A DNA stretch of 64,000 nt from Psococerastis gibbosa (lineage: Eukaryota; Arthropoda; Insecta; Psocodea; Psocidae), in the NCBI GenBank assembly GCA_963971405.1, contig OZ020484.1, forward strand, positions 37,284,770-37,348,769, read 5' to 3'. The notes below the pieces were generated by a model. It saw only the letters and a program-made list of their open reading frames with translations, did no database searches and had not been told where the DNA came from. The translations under genes and the position numbers were made by a program. Shown here piece after piece: positions 3,300 through 25,900 of the stretch (position 1 is its first letter; the number at the start of each line of letters is the position of its first letter).

Positions 3300-5500
3300 T
3301 CTAATTTTTGTTATAACGTGGAGGTAGCCTCTTCAACCAAAAGTTAATTTGAAAGTCAGTGTTATGTACTCCATATAATACTGCAATAACAGGTAGTGTG
3401 GGATTAACTGAACGTAGGACCTGTAGCGAGACCTCCCAGCCGTCCCGACCTAACACCCACTCCCACATCAAAACAGGAGAAGTCCTGAAGATGCTGGAAT
3501 AAAAGCGTCCTTGACTTAGGGAGAATGGTTTTGGGGCGGAAAGTGGATATAGGCGTAGTAGAATATGGGCCAGGGTCAGTCATACATTAAATAAAAACAA
3601 ATACTGCCTTATTTTAATTGAGCTGTAACGGTAGGCTATTATTATTATTATTGAAATATTTAGGGCAACCGATTTCGAGGAGTAGAAGCAGAGGAGGCGT
3701 TTCGTCAGCTCTTCCAACCTGAGGGAAAGTTGTAAGCAGGGAAATTCGAGCGCAAAATTATAGTCAATGGAAGACAACCCACCAGAATTGTCGAAAACAA
3801 ATATTACATTCCTTCCTCTTCTTTAATTATATTCATTATTATTGCATTATACTCTATTTTAAAAGTCTTTTCCATGAAGTTTTCCATTATCACATTTGAC
3901 TTACAGTTACATGGTCAAACCCTAGGGAACATGTGAATGTCGCCAAATTAGATACACTATATGGGAAATATTCGAGAGTCTGCGTTGTAGGTTATTAGTT
4001 TTTCCTAAATTTCTGTGAGGCTGACAATGTATTCCCCGATCCTAGTCTTAAATTAGGGAGCAAAAAAAGCCCAATTAGCCGCTTCTATGTTACCCTCTTA
4101 AATTTAAGGCAGACGGTAAATGACGTTCGAAGCGTAATGAAACAAGTCTAAGCACTGCTATTATAGACGATAGTACGCATATTGTTCCTATTGCACTAAA
4201 ACAAATTATTCATAAAGGGTCATCGCAAAGGCATTGCCTTTAGACAAATCCAAAATACAAACATTGTATCTAAGTATGTAAAACAGACCATTGTATTCCC
4301 ATAGGTATCATGCATTTAATTAAGAAAGGCTAAAAAATGGAAGAATTCTCTGCAGCTCTGCAACCAAGGTCACACTTTGTAATGAGCCAGGAAGCTGGGA
4401 CTCAAGGCCTCAGGCTGATAACTAAAATGCACCATCGGTTTTCTGGGCAAAACCAATGTTCCCCAATTCGGATAGAAACTGGAGAAACAATCAGTTTGAC
4501 AAACCGATATTTTAGTCCATTTAATACCGCCCGCGTCCAATATTAACAATTCAATACTGCAGTTACACTAAAGCCGCGACGCCTGTCCAACAGTTCAACA
4601 CCCGAGCTCTTGTTTATACATGTGCGTTTCCTTGTATACAGAATTAACTTACCACTAATGTAGCCAAAGATAAATTGTAATCTAAATATCGTTCAATTTA
4701 TTTTATGAACAACTTACTGCAAACACATTTTTTTCCAAATTACACCGATTCAAACAAACAATTAATATATTATATCTAACATACCTGTTGACATTTTATT
4801 TTTGTAATTTTTATGAACACCCCAAGCGGCAAGCGTCCGCCACTCCTCCAGACCTTTACCAACAAAACAAAGCTTGAGTTGCGCGCCTTTTTTATTTTAC
4901 GTTGATTTATTCACTATTTGCGCGGAAAATGAAACTTATTATTTTTCCTATTTATTTACATTATTTTGTTTATTGTGCAGCACCTTCTTAAAATTACCTA
5001 CAATTCTTTATGTTAGACTCTAGTTAAATTTTCTAGTACCTACGGTATTTGCGGAACATACAACTTGCTTAAAAATTACACAAAGCAAGTCTTTTTGTAC
5101 TTATGTACTTACAACTTACTTACTCACTGACTATCAGTCCAATCAGAAGCGGCCCCCTATGTGATAATGCAAAGATGGAGTACCTATATTATATTAAAAA
5201 CAACTACATATTTTGGTGAAGTTCATACTTCACTAGAAACGTTGGCAATGGTGTGTTTTGGTTCTACAAAATTCGGAGTTTGTAAGGTAGAGCATATTCC
5301 AGGATGGGCTATCCAAATATAATTCCCTTAGAAGGGATAATATCAAAGCGGCTTCATCCGTCTTGAAAATTTAAAAAATAACCGTTACAAGAGGATCATT
5401 TACGACGTGGATACAATTCGAGGAGTGGATGACTGGTAACAGTGGAAGTGGAGGTTCCCATTATCATTCGTGCTGTTTTTGTACACACTACACTAGTACT
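3300..5500. other. Intergenic, nothing identified
   Basis: AT-rich DNA with short TTA runs. The only longer open frame (4337-4546, plus) has no recognisable domain and no splice or codon signal that I trust. No repeat of the families catalogued elsewhere in the window was found. Confidence 0.4.
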
Positions 5501-6025
5501 CATGGCCGTGCCTACTGCCTAGGGGGGTGGTCCATGGGGTCCGACCCCCCCCCCCCGAAATAAATTTTTGTATGTAAACCTGTATGGTTTGATGAATTTA
5601 TCCATTAATTCATTACATTCATTCAATCAATAATGAAAGGGAAATTAATTCTTAGTAACTTATGCTTATTTTACATGAAAAAAATCAACACATTGACCAA
5701 GTACTTTCACAAAAAATATATTACTCAAAATCCTTAAAACCCCAATACTACAGAGCTATTTTTTCCATATTTTTCTCCGGGGGAGGCCCCCGGGCCCCCT
5801 TTCTCTAGGTTAGAATATTCATAAAACGTCACGAATTTGGGCCCAATTATCATTTTTTTCTCTAGGGGGACCCCCGGGCTCCCCTTTCTCCAGGGTATAA
5901 TATGCGTATGACCTCACTAATTTGGGCCCATTTATCGATTTTGTTTCTCCCGGGAACAAGCAAGGTCTTGGCCCTTGGGGTCCTAAAGCCCCCCCACCCA
6001 GAAATTTTGGGAATTTACGCCAATA
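5501..6025. mobile_element. Composite of hAT-like MITE fragments
   Basis: The left end (CATGGCCGTGCC..) and the TGTAAACCTGTATGGTTTGA block match the MITEs at 45731-45894 and 58121-58331. The right end (..TTTACGCCAAT) matches the terminus of the element at 43416-44110. Between them are modules with TGCGTA-type sequence and CCCCCGGG palindromes. No target duplication joins the two ends, so this is probably a rearranged composite rather than one insertion. Confidence 0.6.
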
Positions 6026-7952: not shown

Positions 7953-10900
7953 CTACGAAACAAATGCATAAATACTTCCATTAAAGGAAGATGATGATGA
8001 CGAAGATCGCCTAGTTTTCCCAGGCTCCCGTTTATTCATACCGATGATATCATTCTTCTTCCCTACAGAGCGGTCAAGAGAACTTGATGTAAAATGGAAT
8101 TGAGAGTTTTCCGTATTCTTCGACTTGTTTGTTGTCCCGACTCTTAGACCATTCACAGTTGAGGGTTTTTCTGGACGCCTATTCAAGGGCGGTGCCTGCG
8201 TCCGAATCACAGGTTTTGCAGTTGTGCTGGACTCATGAGTCTCGGGCTGCCGCTGATTAACTGGGGCAGAAAACGCACCGTGTCCTGACAGACGTTCGTC
8301 TGTCGGTTTCCCCGGAGCTTGTGGCTCGTACGGTCGCTGCTCTTGTTTCGTTGGCATGACTGCGCTGTGAATAAGTTCTTGAATACTATGATCAGTATCG
8401 GGGTTCGGTTGAGTTCTCACCGGAAATTCATCGTAGTCCTCGCTTTCCTCTTTCATAAAGTCAGCCATCGCCCTTTCTGGATCACTAACTCGACCAGCGA
8501 ATAGTGTTACGTTGTTAATTGTGTCTCGAATGAAGAAGAAAAATGGTTTGTCAGCAGTGAATTTTTGAAGGTGTTGTCCCATCAACGGCACTATTTCAGC
8601 CACTGCAACATTACAAAGTTTCAAGTTAGACTCAATTATTGGGAGGATGTCCTTATATTTCCTGTAATTTAGTAGTTATGCAACCAAAATATCATTACAA
8701 AAATATTATAGTAATAGTTGTACGTAGATTTCTAACTTCTGATAATGTGGTTATATTAAATATATAATATAGTCTATTGCATGGAACAAATTTTGTTCCA
8801 TCATCGCTTGAAAATTCTCAGTAGGCAACTTAGGCAAGGATCTTGGATGACACCACAATGCCTTGTAATGGGGCGGTATACCGCAAAACTTTTCAGGCTA
8901 TGGTGAGATCCAGCTGTAGACTACTTTGCCTATATTATTACATTCACATATAATCAACTACTTCTCACCGCTCACGTACGCAACTGAAGTTAACAAATAT
9001 GTACAATAGGTTAGTGTTATTACTATATAGATGCTTACTGATTAATAATAGTAATGAATGCAAACAAAACTAACGTAAAGGTAGGCAATATAACTTACTT
9101 CAATTTCTATACAGTAAATAATATAGTAGCCTATACACCATTAGGTGGATAATAAATTACAAGAACCGGTCCGAGTTTACTCGAACATACTTTCAAATTT
9201 ATCAAGTAGTAGCTAGAGAAAATGAGTAATTTCATGGTAAATAATTTTCCTATAGTTAAATTTCGGGCATCTCGAGGGGGGGGGGCGTTGTCCAGCTGAC
9301 GTCACTGGAGGTGAGGTAAATTCTAGATAGGTCAGACCAACAAATTACCACACAGCAATAATGGCAGGGCGCGCAATGCATTTGAGCGCGAATTTTCTAT
9401 CATTTTTTTCAAAAAATAATGTTTTGTACAAAACTAAATAGTTTTTTGGGAAAGCAACATGTTCAGTTTTGTTACTCAATTTAACACCTAAAACATGCCT
9501 GAAGGTAGAAATCATCGATAGAAAGGTTTCGAAGAAAAATAATTTCTTACTCATTTTTCATTCAAATTTAGTTATTTTTATTTTTTACCCCCAGAAGCAA
9601 ACTATCAAGGGCAAGCGACCCCCGCATTTTGTCAACATTAATAACGACTACAATCGTTGGAAATCGTTGGAGCCGTTTTCGAGAAATAATTTTTTTAGAC
9701 GTTTTTTCGGAGTATTTTGAAAATAAACCCCCCCCCCCCCCAAATTGAGTTAGGCCAAAATAAAAAAAATTGTCCCGAGGTATGATTTTTATGAACCAAC
9801 ATGCCGAATTTCGTCAAAATCGACCGAGTAGTTTGCCCGGAAATCGACGCATAGACGGACAGAGCGACAGACAGAGCGATAGAGCGACAGACAGAGCGAT
9901 AGAGCGACAGACAGACAGACATTTCGTAAAAACCATTTATTTGGGTTCCTGGGACCTCAAAACGTGCAAACCCGTTGAAATCTCGGAATCGAAAATTTCG
10001 ACAATCAGCACAAAGGTTTCCTTATACTACGTATAAATTGGAAAGCAATAACGACAGCGGTTAGTCTAGTCTAGTGCTCTTATTTATACATTGTTGCATA
10101 AACACATTTTTGCTGAAATCGTTTTTAAATCTTTCAACGATTTTGTAAGTGTTAGCTGAGCAATAGGCCTTACCCGTTGCAGCTGCAGCTTCACTGCCTT
10201 CTTCATTCACGACAATCCTGGCGGAATGGAAAACATTGCTGATTGAAATTGTGTCGTTTGCTGACTCAAGAATTCTACTGAAGTTGGCGTCGGCACTGAA
10301 TGCCTTGGAAATGTCGACACGACGGAGCGCCTCGACTAGATCTTGTTTGAAATCCAAACTGAATTTTGGCAATTGGACTTGAACTTCTTGGGGCTGCAGT
10401 TTAAACAGCGCTCGATGGAACGGTTCAATGGTGATATCTTTTTCCAATTGCTTGATATTTCCTTGTGGAAGAAAAATCAGCATCGAGAATCGTTCATCCT
10501 GAAAAATAAAAATAACCTCAATTTGATAAATTGATAACACAGAGTTGGTACCTATTTAACTATGTATAGGAAGTCTCTAGAATCTAGATACAGGCGGCAG
10601 CATCACGGAAGGGAAGACATGGAAAAATTCGAAACCCTATTCTCCACCTGCCGGGTTGGTATTTTTTCCGTATACTGTATTTCCTTTCTCTAAATCTTTA
10701 CTTATTATAGGTACGGTATTTAATGCAGTGCATTGCCATGCAATTGCATTTATTATAGGTACAGTATATTTTTTTAAAGGATCAATCTTTACTTCTGAGA
10801 ATTCAACTGTAGGGAACTTGGTCATGTCCACTCCAGGGGCGCCGCCAAATTGTTTCAGTGCTTTGCCCAGGTCAGCATTCAGTTCTCGTTCTAGTTCTTT

Positions 10901-13900
10901 CGTGGGCTCCACCAATTTTCCTCCACTGCTTTTCTGTTTGTATTCCTTAATTTTGTCCAAAAATAATTGCTGTATAGGGTCACTGGCTTTTTGAAGAAAT
11001 GGAGCGGCAACGCCGATATTTCTCCTAAATATGGAGGGAAGGGACCTGGCTGCTTTAATGGCCTGCGTCTGAATCATGTTGATTTCAGATTTTAAAAAGC
11101 AGACGATGCCGAATGCCGAAAGGTATAGTAGGCTACCTACCAGATATGGGATTTCAATAGCTTTTGCATCAAGCAGTCCAATGTAACCATATTTGAATGT
11201 GCCGGTTCTCTGCATGAACCAAGTATCGACACAGCCACCATCTGCTTTCCGAAAACATCGACTCGGCACCCGCTCAAAGGGTATCTTCCATGGAGCTTTG
11301 AAGTAAACAGCGCTAGCCAATAGCGCATGCGCCTCAGAGGAAAGTTGATCACGCGTGATCATGTTTTGAATGATCCCGTTGGTTTCTTTCGAGATCCAGT
11401 CGTTGACTTCTGATGCTGCCTTAGTTGAGTCCACGGGAAGGCTCTGCAGTCCCCCGTGGAATTTCTCCTTAAGTACGTTGGCAAATGCACGATTTGGTGC
11501 ATGATTATTCATGAGGAAGAGACGAGTAGCCAGTGATAACTTAGTCCTTTTAGGTTTCTCCTGGAACAATTAAAAATTTGAGATGATGGGTTTCCTTATC
11601 ATTTTGAAACCTGCTTTTGTCCAGAACTTCCCGTTGCAAAACATATAATTTCGGTAGGACCTAGAAAACAGGCACGATAAACACCTGCATATACATAGTG
11701 ATAAAAATTATTTTAAAAGACTTCACTGGAGCCATCCATAAATTACGTAACGTAAAAATTGGGAATTTTAAACCCCTCCCTCCCCCTCCATGTAACGGAA
11801 CCGTAACGATAGTAGCCACCCCCCCCCCCCCCCCATTTCTTCATTCTCCTGCCAATTCTTTGCTCAGAGGGGCCATCCTCCCTTCTACGCGATTAATTGC
11901 ACTCGTACCAGGGGCATTGGTAGCTATAAATAAAGCATCCAAGTTTTGTTCTACGAAGTGATGAATATTGCAATATTTGTTCGGTTTTATCGCGCGTACG
12001 GTACTTTGAAAAAATTATTTAATCTATTGATAACTTTATAATATTAAAATTGAATTTTTTCGTTACGTAACGCCGGTCTATACCCCTCCCTCCCCTATCG
12101 TAACGAAGCGTAACGCTGATGGGAGCCCCCTCCCCCCCCCCCAGAAGCGTTACGTAATTTATGGATGCTCCCTGTTCGCAGAACTTGGATTGTACCTATA
12201 GGCTATGCAATTCATTCAATTCATCCTCCGCATCATCATCCTCAACACCGCATCACCGAGAGTCGAAGAAGGGAACATTGCTATAAGTTTGACTTTGAGT
12301 TTGATCACACCGTCCATACCTGAGTGAGTTTCATATTTTATCTTGAAAGAGATCATTCCTGTTCCTTAACTCAAAATAAACATTTCATACTAAATTCCTA
12401 AACCCGCATTTATTTGGTATCATACGATACGGTAGCAGCAGTTCGGTATGAGAGGAGTTCTGCTTAAAGGTCATCATTTAGTCTACGCATAAACTACATA
12501 ATTATTGTGTAGAAACCAAAGCCTGTCCCTTACTTCAAAAGCCTGCACCCAGCTGTGAACAATATCCCTTGCTCCCGGGGGTTCAGCGGGAAGTCTGAGG
12601 GCGAACTGAATCTCTTCTGACGTTGGGCCCGAGGAGCCCTCCATCAGCATCGCCAGCAGCACCTTCACACTGATGGGTGACAGAGCAATATTCCCCTCGT
12701 GCAGGCGAGACACAGCCTGAAAATTTCAACAAATACTCTGTATATCCCATTATGATCCATTGCTGAAAAGGTAACAGTGACGCGCCATTTGCCTCTGAAC
12801 CCTTAGGCGGGGATTCCATCGACCGGCTAGGGCTAAATACAGAAACGGTGACGTGGTAGCAGACATTCAAGACTTAGGCGGGGTTTCCACCGACCTCGCA
12901 TTACAGAATGCAAATGACATTGACGGAAATGTTTGTTTTCCTCTATTCCATAGTTAAAATTGATCAATGATCATACAATAAAATCACAAACAAACTAAAA
13001 TTAAAAAATGGCGTCATGGGATATGTTAAGTACAAACATTTTAATAGATTTCTATAAAAAGAAAAACAAACATTTTTTTAATTTTAGTTTGTTTGTTTGT
13101 GATTTTACTCTATGATCATTGATCAATTTTAACTATGACATAGAGTAAAACAAACATTTCCGTCAATGTCATTTGCATTCTGCAATGCGAGGTCGGTGGA
13201 AACCCCGCCTAAGTCTTGAATGCCTGCTACCACGTCACCGTTTTTGTATTTAGCCCTAGCCGGTCGGTGGAATCCCCGCCTTAAGAACTGATATGCTAAA
13301 ACGAGGCATATCAGTTACGGTATGCTACAGGTTCATGATATTTTGAATTTTGTATGCTTTGTAGTAACAGGTAAGCATGTATGTATTGTACATGTGAAGC
13401 CGATAAAATCAATATGTTACGGTTTGTTTTAACCGCGAACAGGTCGAATCGAATTGAATCGGCTTATAGAAGCATGAGTCTCAGCTAGGGGATGGTCATG
13501 CAAAATGGGAATGTGCATGTTTTCTTCAATTCTCAGTTTAATTCCTTCCAAAGCACCTAACTAAAAAAATAAGTACAGTAGCTTATTGTCCGATACATTT
13601 CCACCCGAGAGCAGCCTGCAATGAAAAAACCTCTAGGCCTAGTGCCGACAAGCGAAGTGAGAAAAGACCTTATAATTTGCTGACTCACTGGTGGAGCAAA
13701 AGCCAAAATGATAGGCTATACTCTTCGGTTGAAATGACATGGCGATGGCCCTCCCGCCATGAGATGCGTCAACCAGCCTTGCACAGCTATGAACTTATAA
13801 TGTAACCTTTAATTATTCATGTAGGTGCTTTAAAAGTTACGTTTTGCTAACCTGGAGCAGTTCTACGTCAAATTGTGCGGGGCGATGTGCACTAGGCTTG

Positions 13901-22990: not shown

Positions 22991-25900
22991 TTACAGATCA
23001 TCCATGGATTCTATTGGCATGAGATGATGGGGCGGCATGCTGCCAATGTCTGGCACATCCAGTTTATCTGCAGTGACAGATGGATTTACAAGTTTACCCT
23101 CGAAGATAATGGATCCCGTTTGCTCATCTTCTATGTAAAATAAGAATGGATGCGACGCGTTGAACTCAATCTCAGGGATTCCCAGCTTATGCACCAATTC
23201 CATTTCTGAAATGTAAATATTTGTTTCGGTGAGTTTCTATATGACGTCAAATTGTAGAGTTGCGTCATGGTAAAATATTTAAGTTGTAAATAGCCGTGAG
23301 CGTTGCCAGCAGCCCGATCATGGCGACTTGGGATTATTATAATACCGGGGTTTATTCAATTGTTTCAAATAAATGAGTGCAAATTCAAATTGATAAATTA
23401 ATATTTTTGGTGAGTTTTTAATATTTAAAAATTCTACTTCCACATTTAAATGTTAATTAGTATTTCTTTCAATTATAAAACAATGCAACCATTCTCTTGT
23501 ATTCCATTAATTTATTAATTTGAATTTCCCGCGCATATTTTATCACCGTTACGGGACACCATACAACTGCGGTATTAGAAAATAAACCCCGGTATTATAA
23601 TAATCCCCAATCGCCATGATCGGGCTGTAGCTGTATAGACAAGGTGTGGCTGTGGACCTCTCCCCCCCCCCCCCCACTCGGTGTAGATTCGCCTAGAGTC
23701 TTGATTTTGCTTGAGCTTTACAATGAGCATACCTAAATTTTGTTACATTATAATCATCGTATCTAATTATATCCTGGAAGCTTGAAGAATAATAAATACA
23801 TATAGGCATGCACATGGACGGATACAGGGGGGGGGCCAGGGGGTAGCTGCTTCCCCCTCCCCACAAATATATATATAATACTTACCAGTAGCAGCAGCGG
23901 CGATGGTGCCTGTTTCAGTGACATGAATTGAAGCTTTCTGAATTATATTAGAAACAGTTGGATTCTTTTCCCCCTTATAACCGACAATTCCATGGAAATC
24001 GTCACTATTAGAAAATATTGACTCCAACCCCATCTAGAAATAATATTATTTTTAAAGATTTCTCCACTCCATACTGTAGTTATAGTATAACAAAAAGAAA
24101 ACTGCATAATACTGCAGCTTGAAATTAGCTAGCCTACTCCATGCAATACAACGGAAAACAATGTACACTAGCACCCAATGTAGTAAAGACACTCATAGCC
24201 TATAATAATTGAACTAATGACTTCTAAACCACTCGACAGATTTTCAAAGCAGTGGTACGTAGGGCTTAGACTATGGACGGATACAGGGGGGACAGGGGAA
24301 GTAGCTTCACCCAAACTTTAGCAAATCTATTTGAAGTTAATTTATTATACTCTAACTTAATCGGTACTACATATTATGTTTGTTCTATTTTTACCCATTC
24401 TACCCCCCCCCCCCTAAAAATGGGCTGGATCCGTTCCTGGTTTAGACTCTACCGTATTGTAGGCTTGAGCCTACTTCTTGAAAACAACTTACATCTGAGA
24501 GAACTTTCTTCAAATTCATGACGAAATCAAAATGGAACACCGGCAAGATGACTTCAACCGAAGTTTCTTCCAATAGGTGGGTAAGTCGTCGCAAATGGAA
24601 TGGGCTGATTTTGCTCAAAAGTTGGTTCAGTCCATCGGCCCTACGTGGCAACACTATATACATGGAAAATTTATTGCCCTGAAATACGAGTAATATATAG
24701 AGGAACATTAAATAGAAGTACAAATATAACGTGACAAAATTCAATATTGAATTTCTACAATATACACACTACACAGTAGATAAACGACGAAGAAGTGCGA
24801 GATTGGTGTGAAAGTCAGCACACTGCCCTGGCTAGTTAGAGAAGCGGTATCGAATTCCGATTTCTTTCAATTGTTCTCTTGTTTATCTTTCTTTCTTTCT
24901 TTAATTTGATCCCTGTATAGTGCAATATCTTGCTTTCTTATATACAGTATATCATAATTATATATATCATAATTATATATACTCATAATATCTTACATGT
25001 AGGATACGGTGGCCGGTAGGTTCTCTACTACTTTACGTCAATAGGTATATGATACATTCATCCAACTATTTAAATTAGGTAACGGCAAAGGCTTTCTCGG
25101 CCGGATTCTACTGGTTTTTTATCTTATTTATATTAGAGTTCATTATGGGCTATAGGTCTACTACTGTAGAAGTATTGGGTATAAGGAGAGGTAGAGGAAA
25201 AATGTGTGAAAGATTAGCACTCGCAATTTTTAACCTTGTATGGGAGACGTAGAAGCCTTGCATCGAGATCCTGGGACTCAGAAATATAATAAAGGCCAGT
25301 TTTGGTCATGTACCGTACAGGCAACGGTCCGTCGGGAGTTAAGAAATTTCCGTTGAAACTGTCTTTCTCGGGGAAAGGTTGTCTCCATTTTCCCTGGAAG
25401 TATACAGCATTCACCAGGACCATTGATGTTTCTCGCAAAGCCTCCACTGAAAGAAGGATTAAAAATAAAACTTCGAAATTGATGCACTTGCAGCACACAT
25501 AGGCTCAGTCTACGGTACCCATGCCATCAAATTAGTACCTACCGCGTAGTCAAAACATTCTTAGAAAATATTGCCGTACCAAGATTTTGACAGCGAGTGC
25601 CAGGGTTCTGGCTGTCAGCCAATCATTATGTTAGCTCTGCCTCCTGCAGGATTTGACCAAGTATCAGATAGACCGCTATCCATATGCTGAACAACCTGTT
25701 CAAACCACCATGCTGGTGGAGCCAACCTCCCCCAGCAATTCTAATCCCACGATGAAAAAGTGCATTCAAGGACATGATGTTGAAGAATCTCTTCTGCCCC
25801 TTATAGGCTATAATGAGGGGAGCACGAAATAAGTAAAAGAATCCGTGACAATCACTACATAGCCTATTTAAAGACCTTATTCACTATACACAATAGTAAT

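Follow-up and report, generated by a model that had tools for sequence, protein, structure and literature searches.

Does an intact mitochondrial protein sequence that lies within a serpin gene, in frame with the preceding serpin exon, mark a fusion gene, an active retrogene or a mere passenger? This question is raised by a 64,000-nucleotide (nt) stretch of the genome of the insect Psococerastis gibbosa (contig OZ020484.1, positions 37,284,770 to 37,348,769; hereafter the window), in which one serpin gene, serpin A, contains a sequence for ATP synthase coupling factor 6 (CF6). An earlier note on this DNA had pointed out that a serpin exon continues, free of stops, into CF6, and this holds: the minus-strand frame 11569–10637 is open for 310 codons and leads from the serpin exon across its donor site into an ATP5PF-like sequence. 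Pfam recognizes both parts of the frame (Serpin, E 2e-24, residues 5–145; ATP-synt_F6, E 8.5e-28, residues 176–259), the latter with 97 bits against a cut-off of 27.9, and the coordinates and the 46-residue C-terminal tail given in that note are correct. We consider it highly probable that the CF6 sequence is a young processed retrocopy of a multi-exon CF6 gene that came to lie inside a pre-existing serpin intron, where it would be a passenger without effect.

The parental gene, the copy and the host intron

A search of the genome (409 Mb in 68 contigs) with the CF6 part of the frame found, besides the copy itself, two segments of a single further locus (C1:19026008-19030502), which lies on the same contig as the copy, some 18 Mb away. 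A search at the DNA level added the 5' untranslated region (5'UTR) exon of this locus, and a Pfam family search of the genome retrieved the same two CF6 loci, copy and parent. The parental gene has three exons separated by introns of 666 and 3473 nt (in the coordinates of locus L004, exon 1 ends at 1041, exon 2 covers 1708–1860 and exon 3 starts at 5334, with the stop codon at 5500–5502). Its 106-residue product matches solved CF6 chains with a best E value of 3.4e-24. The intronic sequence is thus not the only CF6 gene of this genome, the case in which, according to the earlier note, it would have been the host gene itself and not a retrocopy.

The copy (11112–10778) fuses the parental 5'UTR exon, exon 2 and exon 3, with both junctions exact, and agrees with the parent at 329 of 335 bases, the first 241 of them without a single difference. 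A similarity of this extent is far beyond chance, which does not apply to the in-frame joining with the serpin exon (see below). The copy begins 34 nt ahead of the exon 1 donor, within the 5'UTR, and nothing further upstream matches; its start presumably lies near the parental transcription start. The CF6 initiation codon (11077) is found 63 nt into the serpin intron, in the serpin reading frame. At the other end, ungapped homology extends no further than codon 100, out of 106 in the parent, and the last parental codons, the stop and the 3' untranslated region (3'UTR) are absent (BLAST and local alignment extend the homology by four bases past a one-base gap; these bases were not counted). Judged by its sequence, the intronless CF6 nested in the serpin intron is a processed retrocopy, a well known kind of gene copy that looks ordinary and common.

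Two possible sources of the differences at the 3' end, a third CF6 locus and an alternative last exon of the parent, were considered and neither was seen. The protein, DNA and Pfam searches of the genome gave 3, 4 and 3 matches, respectively, all of them to the copy or the parent; such searches score only their best candidates, so that a very decayed third copy could escape them. No alternative last exon was found in the 27 kb around the parent (L013, L004 and L014), where the sole match outside L004 was 15 nt long (E 0.37). Among other nuclear genes of oxidative phosphorylation (OXPHOS), Pfam searches for ATP synthase d (three matches, all pieces of one multi-exon locus) and COX6A (one match) revealed no further copies, two families being too few to estimate the retrocopy rate of the genome. 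The mitochondrial gene COX1 gave 43 matches. One of these is on C68, a 17-kb contig that is mitochondrial by its genes and on which COX1 is open under the invertebrate mitochondrial code; the other 42 are on other contigs (e.g. L017 and L018) and apparently represent many insertions of mitochondrial DNA into the nuclear genome.

Serpin A is covered by four Pfam-matched stretches (profile positions 12–73, 77–218, 216–330 and 336–370), so that, with its first exon not located, the host gene looks intact from profile position 12 on. The intron that carries the copy ends in the acceptor TTTCAG, after which the next exon begins at 10498 with DERFSM (by inspection). A second, neighbouring serpin gene of the window, serpin B, has an intron of the same position and phase (LPYK/GNKFSM versus IPYL/DERFSM), with the preceding exon ending at 25235 and the next one starting at 24678, again by inspection. 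No CF6 was detected in the serpin B intron: among the three matches to CF6 that tblastn gave across the whole window, the one to the serpin A copy alone was significant (E 4e-64; the other two, 6.4 and 9.0). Since the corresponding intron of serpin B is free of CF6, the host intron appears to be older than the copy. No closer serpin paralogue with an empty intron site was found, as this exon, searched at the protein level against the entire genome at E 0.001, retrieved only itself (one match from 11 scored candidates); serpin B was recognized by inspection of the window. A search against NCBIfam, a prokaryote library, returned no families.

The exon joins, the parent and the host intron can be read directly from the assembly, and they suggest the following course of events. 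Spliced mRNA of the multi-exon CF6 gene would have been reverse transcribed, and the cDNA would have been inserted in the serpin orientation 28 nt inside the pre-existing serpin intron, presumably by retrotransposon machinery. During normal transcription of serpin A, the copy would be spliced out with the intron and would have no effect. Were the intron retained, the serpin would end before its reactive loop, and the early stop would be expected to lead to decay of the mRNA. The features of the locus are listed in the table.

Table. Features of the serpin A locus around the CF6 copy (window coordinates)
Feature	Position	Strand	Basis or remark
Serpin A exon (exon 4 of the earlier note)	11141..11560	-	Pfam Serpin E 2e-24, profile 77-218; borders by inspection
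Serpin A donor CTG/GTAGGT, phase 0	11140	-	By inspection
Serpin A intron, 642 nt, phase 0, containing the CF6 retrocopy	10499..11140	-	By inspection
Candidate target-site duplicate, 5' copy TACTATACCT	11121..11130	-	9/10 match; not significant
Copied portion of parental exon 1 (5'UTR; no differences in 34 nt)	11079..11112	-	Alignment to parent
Copied parental exon 2 (no differences in 153 nt; ATG of CF6 at 11077)	10926..11078	-	Alignment to parent
Copied portion of parental exon 3 (148 nt with six substitutions)	10778..10925	-	Alignment to parent
Open 46-codon tail without recognizable parental homology, starting with TTAAAAAAATA	10640..10777	-
Candidate target-site duplicate, 3' copy TACTGTACCT, right after the A-run	10757..10766	-	Not significant
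Dispersed repeat piece, found again on contigs C2 and C12 (80 and 83%)	10599..10663	-	Overlaps the last 8 tail codons
Stop codon that ends the read-through frame, 138 nt ahead of the next serpin exon	10637..10639	-
Open stretch containing the following exon of serpin A (from DERFSM... to EEGSEAAAATG)	10061..10498 (3' border approximate)	-	Pfam Serpin E 2.5e-29, profile 216-330

Elsewhere in serpin A, the open stretch that contains the last exon (7953–8675) continues for 174 residues past the serpin match, possibly as a long C-terminal extension of the protein. Directly upstream of the exon at 12483–12725, two 194-nt arms (12805–13281) are 95% complementary, with a spacing of 89 nt, and have the look of a foldback or miniature inverted-repeat transposable element.

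The 3' end of the copy and its substitutions

Because the copy has lost the last codons, the stop and the 3'UTR of the parent, the 46-residue tail is intron sequence, and the frame ends at a chance stop after sequence that is unrelated to CF6. A parental 3' end hidden in the tail was considered and rejected, its best alignment being equalled by 737 of 2000 shuffles. Right beyond the 3' end of the copy, an 18-nt direct repeat, TTATTATAGGTAC[GA]GTAT, is present at 10702–10767 (94%, 48-nt spacing). The 8-base core of the insect NRG motif, RTTAYRTAAY (PMC2241641, in the passages drawn on here), occurs twice within the first 6000 nt of L004, each time in intron 2 of the parent, and is absent from 10061–11600; no conclusion is drawn from this distribution.

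Several properties of the copy weigh against a simple young passenger. There is no clear poly-A tail, only TTAAAAAAATA after the 3' truncation, a possible poly-A remnant. Nor was a significant target-site duplication found around the copy: the candidate pair TACTATACCT/TACTGTACCT is suggestive at most, as 20 of 300 shuffles did equally well. All six substitutions fall within the last 94 of the 335 bases, at an offset of at least 241 (10778–10871), which has a probability of 4.3e-4 under random placement. Homology is lost abruptly right after this cluster, and the sequence beyond is not recognizable. A young copy does not predict such clustering, which therefore weakens this reading; the cluster could go back to a different exon 3 in the source allele, to error-prone repair of the 3' junction, or to cDNA-templated overwriting of an older copy. 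Finally, codons 1–100 contain four synonymous and two non-synonymous changes (dN/dS 0.14; binomial P 0.025 under neutrality).

The comparison of dN/dS between the copies, proposed in the earlier note as a check, thus leans towards constraint when taken by itself. It does not establish selection, as the six changes are clustered and unpolarized and the pairwise count mixes a constrained parent, in which some of the substitutions may have arisen, with the copy. A young copy needs no selection to keep its frame, and the intact frame is probably owed to this youth.

Fusion, live retrogene or passenger

How much weight can be placed on the continuity of the frame? With the base composition of the window, 21 codons are free of stops with a probability of 0.24, and one frame in three is the right one, so that an open frame is expected by chance in about 0.08 of cases. 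Frame continuity alone is therefore weak evidence, and we rejected a fusion gene by design as the principal explanation. A serpin-CF6 fusion could arise through retention of the intron, in a frame that is indeed stop-free across the serpin donor, or through a cryptic donor at 10792 that would insert CF6 residues into the serpin. This donor (GAA/GTAAAG, phase 0) is the best in-phase cryptic site and is in phase with the acceptor, but scores 4.3 bits compared with 8.1 bits for the serpin donor, which ranks first among the GT sites at 10400–11160 (the next one, at 10647, has 4.9 bits and phase 1; all by matrix score). An insert of this size would probably disrupt the fold of the serpin. The retained-intron product, for its part, would end at the predicted stop, 138 nt ahead of the next exon, and lack this exon and with it the C-terminal part of the serpin, including EEGSEAAAATG, which we take to be the hinge of the reactive loop. 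General knowledge of serpins and nonsense-mediated decay would predict degradation of this product and no inhibitory activity. If serpin A were a secreted protein, a fusion would, hypothetically, bring the CF6 part into the secretory pathway. Beyond the near-chance open frame, nothing positive speaks for the fusion that the earlier note had envisaged, and we regard it as very improbable.

The same note had suggested a live retrogene, which would be transcribed from the serpin promoter or from a new one and would provide a further CF6 whose C-terminus is changed, perhaps with a bias to the male germ line. This possibility has in its favour that the frame is intact across 100 of the 106 parental codons, that the synonymous excess described above would be infrequent under neutrality, and that OXPHOS duplicates of Drosophila melanogaster are strongly testis-biased (PMC551531; PMC2241641, in the passages drawn on here). 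Yet the copy contains nothing from upstream of the 5'UTR and is without the parental stop and 3'UTR, its tail is intronic and in part a dispersed repeat, and youth by itself accounts for the intact frame. With nothing positive beyond this frame and a weak synonymous excess, a transcribed retrogene keeps a small chance, and on the sequence the retrocopy is most likely inert. The cluster of substitutions, together with the lack of anything recognizable beyond codon 100, would also fit an older retrocopy in which fresh parental cDNA later replaced the 5' two thirds, the diverged 3' third and the tail being left. Since the identical stretch spans three parental exons, the template would have to be cDNA, one-step conversion from genomic DNA being impossible. 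A divergent exon 3 in the source allele or a messy repair of the 3' junction would explain the cluster equally well, and we consider overwriting improbable. We give similarly little credence to the combined proposal that the copy is in use, as a chimera (through the kept intron or the 10792 donor) or as an independent tailed CF6, and that the cluster marks an older copy repaired by parental cDNA. An artefact that placed CF6 sequence in the serpin intron hardly needs to be reckoned with: in the one assembly at hand no support for it was found, the copy is flanked on either side by serpin exons in their correct order, and six substitutions set it apart from its parent.

The inert young retrocopy would show in clean form how mitochondrial genes can give rise to retrocopies within other genes, caught early, with the first 241 bases still unchanged. 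It also carries a warning: a domain that lies intact and in frame within an intron can need no more explanation than youth and a modest coincidence, and annotation could mistake such a locus for a serpin-CF6 fusion gene.

Comparison with known retrocopies

In the open-access literature searched, we did not meet a CF6 insertion in a serpin intron. The position of the copy is less unusual than the earlier note had assumed. In the passages of PMC2241641 drawn on here, retroposition is held responsible for 26 of the 34 OXPHOS duplication events inferred in Drosophilidae, and 7 of all 34 are situated inside introns of other genes. These duplicates, like the copy described here, are intronless versions of a nuclear OXPHOS gene at a new place; their function was inferred by the authors from intact open reading frames (PMC2241641), whereas the present copy, known from sequence alone, has lost its 3' end and stop. 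There is also a likeness with the mtacp1 retrocopy of Drosophila persimilis, which, according to the same passages, is very young and intronless, matches the spliced mRNA including untranslated sequence, and has no promoter. The mtacp1 retrocopy is 100% identical to its source and flanked by an 8-bp target-site duplication (PMC2241641), whereas the CF6 copy agrees at 329 of 335 bases, is truncated at the 3' end and has no significant duplication.

A second copy of CF6 is also found in Drosophila. The table of PMC551531, with its column heads as we infer them, lists ATPsyn-Cf6 with 2 exons and 55 expressed sequence tags (ESTs), none of them from testis, and the duplicate CG12027 with 2 exons in D. 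melanogaster, 1 exon in Drosophila pseudoobscura and 2 ESTs, both from testis. ATPsynCF6L is named among the ATP synthase subunits that take part in testis mitochondrial development (PMC11012351, in the passage drawn on here). The copy in P. gibbosa differs from ATPsynCF6L in being young and altered in its tail. We presume CG12027 and ATPsynCF6L to be the same gene.

Among eight species of Lepidoptera, 1904 of 1993 retrocopies were classed as intact and 1133 as chimeric (PMC11675541). That survey was genome-wide and used its own pipeline, and the passages of it drawn on here contain no case of CF6 or of a serpin host; by its figures, retrocopies that are intact or fused to a host are the usual finding there.

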